44,642 nt of DNA from Bacteroidota bacterium. GTDB taxonomy: Bacteria > Bacteroidota > Bacteroidia > Bacteroidales > F082. The notes below the pieces were generated by a model. That model searched no databases. It was not told the origin of the DNA and worked only from the letters and a program-made list of their open reading frames with translations. This document shows, in pieces, positions 2,836 to 10,384 of this stretch. The position numbers and the translations under genes were made by a program. Every line of letters starts with the position of its first letter. Position 1 is the first letter of the stretch. Location of the stretch: the NCBI GenBank assembly GCA_013203805.1, contig JABMPH010000043.1:1-44642 (forward strand), written 5' to 3'.

Positions 2836-3120
2836 AGTTTTCAATAGAATTATCAGAAGAGTCTGTTTCAAAAGTTTAAATTTTACCACATGGGGTAAAA
2901 AGTTCTTCACTATGGAACACAAAGTGGCTGATTATCGGACATCACCCTTTGTGCAACTTTGTGAAATCCTTAGTGGGACTTTGTGGTTAAACTATTTTTA
3001 GATAGCCTCTTTTTTATGCAAATATTTCGACGTTTACCGGAAATTTTTATTCTTTTCTCCACTCACCGAAAATACTCTACGCTTCGCCTATTTTATATTT
3101 ACGTGAGCCAATATTGAGCA
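2836..3120. other. Intergenic stretch dominated by a palindromic repeat
   Basis: No reading frame here looks real. It holds the CACAAAG-type inverted repeat at 2881-2993 (listed separately) and then about 120 bases of AT-rich DNA leading to the promoter of the next gene. Confidence 0.6.
2881..2993. repeat. Imperfect inverted repeat, CACAAAG family, copy 1
   Basis: The left arm (2881-about 2928) and the reverse complement of the right arm (2941-2993) align without gaps over about 48 bases, sharing TTT-ACCACA, AAG, TTCAC and CACAAAG blocks. The loop is short. The same arm sequence recurs at 7764-8007. This looks like a dispersed palindromic element of the kind common between Bacteroidota genes; no encoded transposase is seen. 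It could fold as a transcript hairpin downstream of tpx. Confidence 0.7.
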
Positions 3121-3128
3121 TATTTTTG
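3121..3128 (+). promoter_or_regulatory. Probable promoter of the YIDDIP-repeat gene
   Basis: TATTTTTG matches TAnnTTTG and lies 32 bases before the ATG. A TTTA at 3098-3101 is at roughly the right distance for the -33 element. Confidence 0.4.
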
Positions 3129-3160: not shown

Positions 3161-3613
3161 ATGAAAACTTATACTAAATCTACCGCCCTCTTCTTCGCAG
3201 CCCTTCTACTATCTCTAAATATTTTTGCAAACGGTATTGAGTTTGATCAAGAAAGCTATATTGATGACATCCCGTTTAATATTGAAGAAGTAATAAATCA
3301 ACTTATATATGAAAAAGCGATTGAAGTAGATTTTTCATTTGATGAAGAAGAATACATCGATGATATACCTGTTGTTATTGATAATCTCACAAGTACATGT
3401 TTATTTACTGATTCTGTATCTCAAGACTTCAGTTTCCAGGAAGAAGAATATATAGATGATATCCCTTCAACTATCGAAGCTCAATCAAGCTTAGTTAAGT
3501 ATTCAGATGCTGTTTCTCAAGATTTTTGTTTTGAAGAAGAGGAGTATATTGATGATATCCCAACCTCAATAGTTATTCCATCATACTGCAAACTTGTTGA
3601 AATTGCGAAATAG
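3161..3613 (+). CDS. Small secreted protein with four YIDDIP motifs at a 32-residue period
   Basis: I do not recognise a characterised function. The 150-residue product has a signal peptide (about residues 1-23, ending near IFA-NG) and a strongly acidic mature part. The motif YIDDIP occurs four times, with Tyr at residues 33, 65, 97 and 129, exactly 32 residues apart. Copies 2-4 are preceded by F-(D/Q/E)-EEE and copies 3 and 4 also by SQDF. Such short '(E)EYIDDIP' motifs occur in small exported proteins of the phylum as far as I recall, but I know of no assigned role. Expansion by duplication of a 96-base unit is inferred. It stands alone, with its own promoter and a strong terminator. Being real is well supported by signal peptide, repeats and flanking signals. 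Confidence 0.8.
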   Translation: MKTYTKSTALFFAALLLSLNIFANGIEFDQESYIDDIPFNIEEVINQLIYEKAIEVDFSFDEEEYIDDIPVVIDNLTSTCLFTDSVSQDFSFQEEEYIDDIPSTIEAQSSLVKYSDAVSQDFCFEEEEYIDDIPTSIVIPSYCKLVEIAK

Positions 3614-3676: not shown

Positions 3677-3708
3677 TCCCCATAGAGACTCTCTGCGGGG
3701 ATTTTTTT
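3677..3708 (+). terminator. Rho-independent terminator after the YIDDIP-repeat gene
   Basis: TCCCC at 3677-3681 pairs with GGGGA at 3697-3701, with an inner AGAG/CTCT pairing, followed by a run of seven T (3702-3708). It lies 64 bases after the stop codon. Confidence 0.8.
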
Positions 3709-3710
3709 GT

Positions 3711-3975: not shown

Positions 3976-5427
3976 ATGAGGCAGATAATAACTTTATTCA
4001 TTCTGGTAACACTAACAGTACTTGGATTTGCACAAATACCATATAATGAAAGATATTCATCTTCGGTTTTTGATGAAATAGAGGTTTTCCAAGATATAAT
4101 TTATGGAAATGCACCTGCGCTTTCCTTCCCATATCTTAATGAAAACAATACAACACCACAGGATTTGCTTATGGATATATATTTACCTGTGGGAGACACA
4201 TTAAACTATCGGCCAGCTCTTGTTTGCATTCATTCAGGAGCTTTTGTATCAGGAACACGACTTGCTGAAGATATGGTTGCCTTCTGTGATTCAATGGCTC
4301 ATCGTGGATATGTAACCGCAAGTATTGACTATAGATTAGGAATGAATATTTTTAGTTCGGAAAGTTCCACAAGAGCAGTATACAGAAGTGTTCAGGATGG
4401 TAGAGCTGCCATTAGATTTCTGAAAGAAAGTGCTGAACTTTATGGAATCGACACAAATGATATTTATATATTGGGTAGTAGTGCAGGTGCCTATGTAGGA
4501 TTACATAATTTGTATATGGACACCGAGAATGAGCGCCCACCTGAAACATATATGAGTCCTGATCTTGGATGCCTTGATTGTTCTGGTAATAGCTATCAAC
4601 ACTTAGGTAAAGCAAATGGATTAATTGCTCTTTGGGGAGCACTTCAGGATACTTCCCTAATAATTTCAACAGATACTATTCCTGTTTTTCTTGCGCATGG
4701 TACTGATGATGCCACTGTTCCTTTTGGCTATGGAAGTGCTTTTGGAAACAATGCCTTCCCTCCCACTTATGGAAGTAGCCTTGTTGCCCAACAAATTGAA
4801 AATCTTGAAAATAATGTATCCAAATATTTTGTGTTTGGCGAAGGACATGAGTTTTATGGAACCAATAATGGAGATTGGACAGGGAATCCAAATAGTTATT
4901 GGGATACTGTTTTTAACAAAACGGAAACTTTTATGTACGATATACATATGCCTGTGGCTGGGTTCTATTATGAAGATTATGGTTCATTTGAATTTTTTGA
5001 TGAAAGCATATGTGCAACAAGCTGGTATTGGGATTTTGGTGATGGAACGTATAGTACAGATCAAAACCCAACTCACGAATATCTTGATTATGATTTTTAC
5101 CGGGTTACTCAATTTGTGAAAAGTTCAACGGATAGCTGGGATACAACATCAGTAATGGTTTACTTTTTTCTTGATATTGAAGAAAAAAACAATGAAGATT
5201 TTATTATATACCCAAACCCCTCTCACGAAAAGGTAACTTTTATGAATAAGGGAGAAAGCAAAATTTATCTTACTTTAAAGAACACTCTTGGAAACGTGGT
5301 TTATTGTACAGAAATTGAAGGCAAAAGCAATACCAGCCTCAATGTTTATAATTATATTCCTGGGGTTTATTTTGCTGTTACAGAGTCTAAAAAGAATAAA
5401 GCGATAAGTAAGCTTATTATTAATTAA
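3976..5427 (+). CDS. Secreted alpha/beta-hydrolase (carboxylesterase-like) with PKD domain and T9SS tail
   Basis: A 483-residue exported esterase/lipase-like protein. Order: signal peptide (1-19, ending FAQ); alpha/beta-hydrolase domain; PKD domain (about 335-395, with SWYWDFGDGTYSTDQNPTHEY); T9SS sorting domain (IYPNPSHEKVTF to the end). The nucleophile elbow is GSSAG with Ser169; a likely acid is Asp244 or Asp245 in HGTDDATVPFG; the likely His is His291 in EGHEFYG. The oxyanion segment is HSGAF rather than the usual HGGG. The substrate is unknown; ester bonds of polysaccharides or lipids are possible. It is followed 5 bases later by a second esterase-like gene, so the two probably form an operon. 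The ATG at 3971 is out of frame and stops at once. Confidence 0.85.
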   Translation: MRQIITLFILVTLTVLGFAQIPYNERYSSSVFDEIEVFQDIIYGNAPALSFPYLNENNTTPQDLLMDIYLPVGDTLNYRPALVCIHSGAFVSGTRLAEDMVAFCDSMAHRGYVTASIDYRLGMNIFSSESSTRAVYRSVQDGRAAIRFLKESAELYGIDTNDIYILGSSAGAYVGLHNLYMDTENERPPETYMSPDLGCLDCSGNSYQHLGKANGLIALWGALQDTSLIISTDTIPVFLAHGTDDATVPFGYGSAFGNNAFPPTYGSSLVAQQIENLENNVSKYFVFGEGHEFYGTNNGDWTGNPNSYWDTVFNKTETFMYDIHMPVAGFYYEDYGSFEFFDESICATSWYWDFGDGTYSTDQNPTHEYLDYDFYRVTQFVKSSTDSWDTTSVMVYFFLDIEEKNNEDFIIYPNPSHEKVTFMNKGESKIYLTLKNTLGNVVYCTEIEGKSNTSLNVYNYIPGVYFAVTESKKNKAISKLIIN

Positions 5428-9181: not shown

Positions 9182-10186
9182 TTACTTCGAATCTCCGTCA
9201 ATAGCCCATTTTAAATAAATGGATCCCCATGTAAATCCTCCACCAAATGCTGAAAGAATAATGTTATCTCCTTTTTTAAGCTTAGGTCCCCATTCGTGTA
9301 AACACATTGGGATAGTTCCGTTGGTTGTGTTCCCATAACGTTCGATGTTGATCATTACCTTTTCCTTTTCCAGTCCCATGCGGCGTGCTGTGGCCTCAAT
9401 AATACGCATATTGGCCTGATGTGGAACAAGATATGCAATGTCTTCAGATTTTAGGTTATTGCGTTCCATTATCTCAACACTAACGTCGGCCATCTTGGTA
9501 ACAGCAAATTTAAAAACGGCTTGCCCTTCCTGATAAATGAAATGTTCACGATTAGTTATTGTATCAATAGTTGGAGGATATTTTGACCCACCTGCTTTTT
9601 GATACAAATGAGGAATACCAACACCATCGCTATACATTTTCGAATCAATAATACCAAGGTCTTCCGTTGTTGGCTCAAGTAGTACTGCTCCACCTGCATC
9701 TCCAAATAATATACATGTTGTACGATCGGTATAATCAACGATTGATGACATTTTATCGGCACCAATAATAATTACTTTTTTAAATTGCCCCGACTCAATA
9801 TATCGGCGTCCGGTTTCTAAAGCATATAAAAAACCAGAACAGGCTGCATTCATATCGAAACAAAATGCATTTTTAATTCCAACTTTTTCACTAATGATAT
9901 TTGCCGTGGTAGGAAACAGCATATCCGGAGTTACTGTTGCACATATCACTAAATCTATCTCTTCGGGAGAGGTTTTTGTTTTTTTAAGTAAACCCTCAAC
10001 GGCATTTGCTCCAATAACTGAGGTGCCTTGTCCTTCACCTTTTAATATGTGTCTTTCCTTTACTCCTGTGCGAGTCATTATCCATTCATCATTGGTGTCG
10101 ACCATAGTGGATAATTCCTCGTTTGTTAGAATATAATCAGGAACCCAGCCATGAATTCCGGTAATTGCTGCATTTATTTTAGACAT
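9182..10186 (-). CDS. fabH: 3-oxoacyl-ACP synthase III (FabH)
   Basis: Cytoplasmic beta-ketoacyl-ACP synthase III, which starts fatty-acid synthesis by condensing an acyl-CoA primer with malonyl-ACP. It has 334 residues, as usual. The catalytic Cys116 lies in [11 protein letters not shown], His256 in VPHQANMRI and the catalytic Asn in GNTTNGTIP; the C-terminus [13 protein letters not shown] is typical. It follows rpmF and yceD on the same strand, the widespread lipid/ribosome gene group, though plsX, accB and accC are not next to it. About 200 bases separate it from rpmF, and a -7-like box there suggests an extra promoter. Assignment is firm. Confidence 0.97.
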
Positions 10187-10222: not shown

Positions 10223-10384
10223 CAAATTTTACTTTGGCATATGTTTAGGTGCTAGTTCCTACACAATACATATCACCATAAAAAACAAAACCCTTGAATA
10301 CCGAGATACACAAGAGCTTTTTCGCTTTTTTTCAAATATTCGCCTTGGTTAAGCCTAATATTTGACTGATAAAGTATTTTATGA

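Follow-up and report, generated by a model that had tools for sequence, protein, structure and literature searches.

A family of small acidic repeat proteins in Bacteroidales, some of whose genes share a promoter architecture with PspC/LiaF-like genes

Main finding

The window (the whole stretch of DNA analysed here, 44,642 nucleotides of contig JABMPH010000043.1) encodes a 150-residue protein with four copies of the motif YIDDIP, which on its sequence is a member of an undescribed family of small, exported-looking, very acidic bacterial proteins. The architecture of the promoter of its gene, a direct repeat followed by a Bacteroidota-type -7 box, is also found at PspC and LiaF-like genes in related genomes, and this correspondence is well supported. 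The YIDDIP protein is proposed, with slightly better than even confidence, to be an exported flexible multivalent binder, induced by one activator together with the PspC/LiaF genes of the envelope-stress response. The features of the locus are as follows.

3062..3088, + strand: direct repeat CTCACCGA-N13-TTCGCC with a period of 21 bp (first half at 3062, TTCGCC at 3083)
3121..3128, + strand: Bacteroidota-type -7 box TATTTTTG, 32 bp after the second repeat, a geometry also found in relatives
3161..3613, + strand: YIDDIP-repeat protein, predicted to be exported, 150 residues in four units; reading frame from ATG to TAG, with family matches
3161..3232, + strand: signal-peptide-like N-terminal helix, residues 1-24, from the structural model, with low omega in near relatives
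3257..3274, + strand: YIDDIP copy 1, residues 33-38, followed by FN
3353..3370, + strand: YIDDIP copy 2, residues 65-70
3449..3466, + strand: YIDDIP copy 3, residues 97-102
3545..3562, + strand: YIDDIP copy 4, residues 129-134
3677..3709, + strand: intrinsic-terminator-like hairpin with a T run (hairpin 3677-3701, -14.3 kcal/mol, z -3.75)

The repeat units and the family

The initial annotation described YIDDIP as recurring at an exact 32-residue period, and the tyrosines do stand at residues 33, 65, 97 and 129 of the reading frame at 3161-3613 (spacing 32/32/32). When aligned over 32 residues, the four units start with GIEFDQESYIDDIPFN, DFSFDEEEYIDDIP, DFSFQEEEYIDDIP and DFCFEEEEYIDDIP, and any two of them are identical at 10-19 of 30-32 residues. 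The codons of the motif differ silently from copy to copy, so the likeness of the units is kept at the protein level. F[ND]T has been lost from copies 2-4, which retain EEEYIDDIP. The annotation of the protein as exported is borne out to the extent that an N-terminal helix is predicted at residues 2-24 (AlphaFold2 model). A simple pattern for the lipobox of lipoproteins was matched by none of 127 family members (0/127), and neither Pfam nor NCBIfam identified a type IX secretion C-terminal sorting domain in the window protein.

Family members were defined by a signal-peptide-like start of the form MK(T) and at least two E-x-Y-[IV]-x-D-I-P units, both of which the window protein has. The unit consensus is [ED]E-E-x-Y-[IV]-[DN]-D-I-P-F-[ND]-T followed by a short helix. 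The copies per protein, which the initial annotation had recommended counting, number 2-5 among 127 complete members. The genome of origin (5.02 Mb, 518 contigs) has five family matches; with this genome counted, 62 of the 198 genomes searched contain the unit (E ≤ 0.01), which places the repeat beyond chance. Within the same taxonomic family, a 42-row profile matched 62 of 173 genomes in 13 of 16 genera, the genome of origin again included. At the level of the order, the same profile matched 31 of 393 genomes (own genome counted), one of which, a 658-residue reading frame, is doubtful; L157, a reading frame of that length first taken as a domain fusion, has no motif above threshold, resembles a TPR membrane protein by eye and was set aside. 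The genome of origin was the sole match in a class-level sample of 395 genomes and, with a 7-row profile, in a phylum-level sample of 395. A scan of species genomes found 164 relatives, and the best 80 of these 164, which were kept (78 loci), all come from metagenome-assembled genomes labelled Bacteroidales, Marinilabiliales, Bacteroidetes or, in some cases, 'Chlorobiota'. Within the searches made, the family thus appears to be confined to one order, Bacteroidales by the labels.

The 366 units that were located by a motif matrix have, counting from the tyrosine, E at -2, D at +3, I at +4, P at +5, F at +6 and T at +8 in 90-99 percent of cases, with E -2 and D +3 at 98-99 percent; such counts favour the motif by construction and are inflated by the matrix. 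The less biased columns of a MAFFT alignment of 64 proteins have E63, D68, E95 and D100 invariant and Y33 and the motif I, P and F nearly invariant. Computed isoelectric points of the 127 proteins span 4.05-5.05, the lower value seemingly being the floor of the calculator. Four members end directly after YIDDI and are possibly truncations; in two of them (L004 and L005) the stop lies inside the matched stretch.

Pfam was matched by none of 42 members at E 0.01, and NCBIfam gave single-member matches to four unrelated families (best E 2.2e-05, judged by E value only). Against curated cut-offs, the window protein itself reaches at best 12.5 bits in Pfam (cut-off 27) and 10.8 in NCBIfam (cut-off 184). 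PDB sequences include no relative of it, phage records hold no family member and IMG/VR none by confirmed match. A literature search by the motif letters found no paper, and no account of the protein or its site appears in the available portions of the matches listed for PspC, LytTR, toastrack and Bacteroidetes/Bacteroidota, or of those listed for LytTR with the site letters or Bacteroides. The remark that no role had been described therefore holds for the literature, Pfam and NCBIfam searches made.

Spacing, selection and predicted structure

The suggestion that the spacing itself is selected stands for near relatives (32 residues in 158 of 220 spacers) and fails in other bacterial families (5 of 55). 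The near set comprises 102 proteins found directly by similarity, mostly from the same taxonomic family, with some genes from outside it (L107 and, by likeness, probably L104, L110 and L112). In this set the first spacer is the loosest (32 residues in 55/102) and later ones are tight (77/91, 22/23 and 4/4 for the second, third and fourth). Among 25 proteins of other bacterial families the spacers range from 27 to 73; relatives with other spacing, which the initial annotation had named as evidence against its suggestion, are thus found beyond the near set. Whole units have been gained or lost, the window protein having four and its closest relatives (L006-L008) three. The constant period probably reflects duplication of units that contain a helix of near-fixed length.

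Six relatives of equal length (118 residues; the 150-residue window protein is not in this set) were compared in 15 pairs, giving pN of 0.01-0.10 for motifs vs 0.04-0.42 for spacers, and omega of 0.06-0.19 for motifs (6 pairs where it is defined) and 0.30-0.94 for spacers. The motif is under purifying selection in near relatives. Taken over the family, the sequences point to a motif under selection and a 32-residue spacing that is conserved only locally.

Two AlphaFold2 models (pLDDT 75-77, pTM 0.23-0.26) consist of separate helices linked by the extended motif: the signal peptide forms a helix, and motifs 1, 2 and 3 are each followed by a helix of 14-15 residues; the fourth motif of the window protein has no helix after it. 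Because the pTM is low, the models do not speak for a defined binding surface.

Some relatives have additional C-terminal parts. Three members (L158, L163 and L164) have a TonB_C-like C-terminal domain with Pfam E values of 0.0051, 0.0021 and 0.094, below the curated cut-off, and the match of L164 ranks third; in PDB, all 12 matches (to E 10) are TonB, the best with E 0.022. L159 resembles these members by appearance, and in all four the helix of the last unit runs into the start of TonB_C. In 7 of 127 members the C-terminus is a hydrophobic, membrane-type segment. Both this segment and the TonB_C-like domain fit repeats located in the periplasm. In L169, from another bacterial family, the C-terminal part weakly matches Pfam MtrC-MtrF_N (E 0.00055, below cut-off).

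Gene surroundings

The gene was initially described as standing alone with a terminator, which agrees with the hairpin at 3677-3701 with its T run and with the distance of same-strand upstream neighbours in relatives. In relatives, a simple gene caller placed 38 of 59 upstream neighbours on the strand of the family gene, all 38 of them at least 115 bp away, and 38 of 61 downstream neighbours, two of them within 20 bp. Gene neighbourhood was considered as a clue to function and discarded: the neighbours are mixed and have no partner in common, and clusters of neighbours inspected by eye include no recurring gene for processing, export or any other partner function. The precursor gene of a ribosomally made modified peptide (RiPP) would have a modifying enzyme encoded beside it, and by eye no partner of any kind recurs in these clusters. 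A dipeptidase-like gene near the window gene, presumably of family C69, recurs in similar form near family genes at only 3 loci.

Several other observations concern adjoining genes and paralogs. At 3976-5427 of the window, an esterase-like protein with a PKD domain and a type IX secretion tail adjoins the YIDDIP gene, and in a relative (L073:4817-5257, - strand) the adjoining gene encodes a tandem-repeat protein with units of the type DSRYDADLLVYFVDSRYDAG. Paralogs stand in a row at 863, 1940 and 3188 of L067 (about 1.1-1.2 kb apart) and at 10001, 15160 and 20019 of L106 (about 5 kb apart).

Two promoter classes

A sigma-70 promoter scan performed at chance level (6 found vs 5.6 expected). The upstream regions of 123 family genes fall into a class with the direct repeat ([CT]T[CT]ACCGA between -150 and -50; 48 genes, the window gene among them) and a class with a sigma-54-like TGGCA element ([TAG]TGGCA[CT]; 67 genes), with none having both and 8 having neither; the TGGCA pattern also has 13 matches on the reverse strand of these regions. 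A stricter earlier rule (n=123) gave classes of 56 and 46 with 21 genes unclassified, and a box gap of 32 in 41 of the 46. Genes from other bacterial families comprise 20 of the TGGCA class, 5 with neither element and none with the direct repeat, the corresponding numbers in the near set being 47, 3 and 48. A tree of promoter classes has 10 changes by count, of which the starred branches force only 1, so repeated promoter switching is not claimed.

Taken one at a time, a second repeat at +21 and TAnnTTTG at +59 are each present in 43 of the 48 direct-repeat genes. CACCGA is present in 43 of 124 upstream regions and once on the opposite strand.

In the TGGCA class (n=67), G at +13 is found in 95 percent and T at +11 in 83 percent, and both in 53 of 67. 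The window gene has TTGAGCATATTTTTGC upstream and no TGGCA, and thus not the sigma-54 pair of TGGCAC at -24 and TTGC at -12. A palindrome, CTG-N5-CAG, that precedes the sigma-54-like elements looks strong in the consensus and matches at least 4 of 6 positions in 43 of 67 genes, vs 1 of 67 after shuffling; it is exact in 3 of 67, and nothing was built on it. Elsewhere in the window, TTTGGCA[CT], the start of sigma-54-like elements, occurs at 10233 (+), 20624 (+) and 32158 (-).

The direct-repeat promoter before PspC and LiaF-like genes

The repeat pattern, allowing up to one mismatch, occurs once in the window (0.10 expected). The genome of origin has four exact matches, three of them 98-101 bp before family genes and the fourth inside a reading frame, and one match to a reversed-pattern control. 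Within the genus, 20 of 29 site matches are 84-148 bp upstream of family genes, and the control pattern gives 3 matches; one further site is 260 bp before a family gene (G003:C147), just outside the distance cut. The other genus sites (contexts with G007:C61 left out) precede three PspC genes, one S46 peptidase gene and one CarboxypepD_reg/Plug gene, or lie inside a reading frame (the one in the genome of origin) or overlap one (G001:C2).

Across the taxonomic family, 169 of 173 genomes have pattern matches, a good part of them probably due to chance because 12 of 30 sampled loci overlap a long reading frame. These 30 loci were chosen by a tool, one each from 30 of the 173 genomes and none from genus g14, which has pattern matches and lacks the YIDDIP protein; a separate 20 site regions were hand-picked as look-alikes or curiosities, and the figures to trust are those of the 30. 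At 15 of the 30, the -7 box lies exactly 32 bp after the second repeat, and these 15 loci precede 9 YIDDIP genes, 4 PspC genes (Pfam E 1.3e-28 to 1.6e-24) and 2 LiaF-like genes (LiaF-TM, E 1.5e-16 and 8.3e-15), and no others. The remaining 15 comprise the 12 that overlap a long reading frame, 2 that overlap none and have no box, and 1 upstream of an S46 peptidase gene, where the box gap is 31 bp. YIDDIP and PspC genes therefore share a regulatory site together with its promoter geometry.

Of the two PspC genes in the genome of origin, L247 is preceded by the site, at one mismatch, and by the box TATATTTGC, and L248 by no site even when 2 mismatches are allowed. At five PspC loci a LiaF-like gene comes next, followed in four by a gene of the CarboxypepD_reg/Plug type (by Pfam for some and by likeness for the rest). 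The repeat pattern was also observed before an S46 peptidase gene (L245), the gene of a CarboxypepD_reg/Plug protein (L246) and a gene that is TolC-like by eye (L239), from which the regulon would be wider than Psp/Lia. Since 67 of 123 genes have the other element and 8 have neither, the link to the PspC site does not extend to the entire YIDDIP family.

Candidate regulator

LytTR systems mostly bind direct repeats of 9 bp that are 12 bp apart, and their Bacteroides examples have a TATCTTTG box and membrane proteins with DUF2154, the LiaF C-terminal domain (excerpted text of PMC6193735). Direct repeats one 21-bp period apart beside a promoter are what a LytTR target would have and what 43 of the 48 genes do have. 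Because the repeat period is 21 bp as in LytTR systems, the activator of the direct-repeat promoters may be of the LytTR type. The genome of origin has 11 LytTR genes, none with the site and box in the flanking DNA covered at up to 2 mismatches, and no LytTR gene was seen beside PspC in five loci inspected by eye over about 3 kb.

Proposed function and alternatives

The location of a rare promoter of the PspC/LiaF type before the YIDDIP gene suggests an envelope-stress function for the protein. The Psp and Lia responses guard the cell envelope, and Psp components are poorly characterised outside Proteobacteria, according to the accessible part of PMC11237479; a survey, as far as its available text goes, suggests a role in beta-lactam stress for PspC in Bacteroidota (PMC9239133). 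In the proposed mechanism, an activator acting on the direct repeat with its 21-bp period would switch on the PspC/LiaF genes and the YIDDIP gene together, other family genes using a sigma-54-like element instead. The small protein would be exported through the inner membrane to the periplasm or envelope, where each of its units would present an acidic extended motif (EEExYIDDIP, in relatives mostly with an F[ND]T helix cap) and usually a short helix, and the motif would bind a repeated or oligomeric partner in the envelope. That these promoters are active, that envelope stress is the stimulus and that the motif binds an envelope partner is what we infer from this arrangement.

The acidity of the motif might instead serve to bind or buffer a metal such as calcium in the periplasm, an idea consistent with the computed isoelectric points of 4.05-5.05 and with the near-universal E -2 and D +3, invariant in the MAFFT columns. 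This reading is unlikely: the most conserved residues include the hydrophobic I, P and F and mostly Y, for which metal binding alone has no need, and the 42 members, with no Pfam match at E 0.01, match no metal-site family there.

The initial annotation also raised cleavage at each motif, and the protein could accordingly be a precursor of secreted signal or antimicrobial peptides of about 32 residues, cut near each motif under a density- or stress-sensing LytTR-like system. Near-equal units in several copies and several paralogs per genome would suit a precursor, and Streptococcus mutans LytTR systems drive bacteriocin genes from direct repeats (PMC6193735, in the part available). However, no processing position is conserved between the units, the spacing varies from 27 to 73 in other bacterial families, no processing or export gene recurs in the neighbour clusters examined by eye, and a membrane-type C-terminus (7 of 127 members) or a TonB_C-like domain (some members) ill suits a diffusible product, so that cleavage at the motif was not upheld and a peptide precursor is distinctly improbable.

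A folded solenoid or self-assembling fibre, in which helix and motif stack into a rod with 32 residues per turn, has in its favour the exact period of many near relatives and the gain and loss of whole units, but is the least probable of these readings given the separate helices in both AlphaFold2 models (pTM 0.23 and 0.26, single-chain models) and the spacing of 27-73 outside near relatives.

Multivalent docking by a chain of acidic motifs with conserved hydrophobic residues probably fits the observations better than metal buffering, a fibre or a precursor. Tentatively, the multivalent binder proposed here could represent a new class of exported effectors that are induced by stress and clamp an envelope machine, such as a TonB- or LiaF-type complex, by their multiple motifs, with promoters that are PspC/LiaF-linked or sigma-54-like. 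If the clamp reading is true, the number of motifs per protein and the number of genes per genome would tune the response.

A concrete DNA site now joins PspC/LiaF-like genes and an unnamed exported-looking family in uncultured Bacteroidales, with YIDDIP genes as the most frequent target in the sample (9 of 15). The envelope-stress regulon of these bacteria becomes directly testable, and the promoter signature can be used to find further targets.

Comparison with known systems

The likeness to proteins with a TonB C-terminal domain is limited to some relatives outside the near set; most members, the window protein included, have no such domain.

The sigma-54 consensus is TGGCAC N5-7 TTGCT (PMC12316311, as excerpted), and the T at +11 and G at +13 of the 67-gene class are in the sigma-54 register of that source. 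In contrast, the strict form TGG[CT]A[CT]-N5-TTGC is present in 0 of 123 family genes, the -12 part there being TNG[ACT]; the class is therefore called only sigma-54-like.

With LytTR systems, as the available text of PMC6193735 describes them, the direct-repeat promoters have in common a 21-bp repeat period close upstream of the promoter, whereas the letters of the repeat differ and the repeats of the Bacteroides examples are 11 bp long with 11 bp between them.

In regulation there is a correspondence with PspC/LiaI-LiaF modules, since the direct repeat and -7 box are common to YIDDIP, PspC and LiaF-like genes of related genomes. The YIDDIP protein itself has no Psp or Lia domain, and its gene would be a target of such a system, not a core component.
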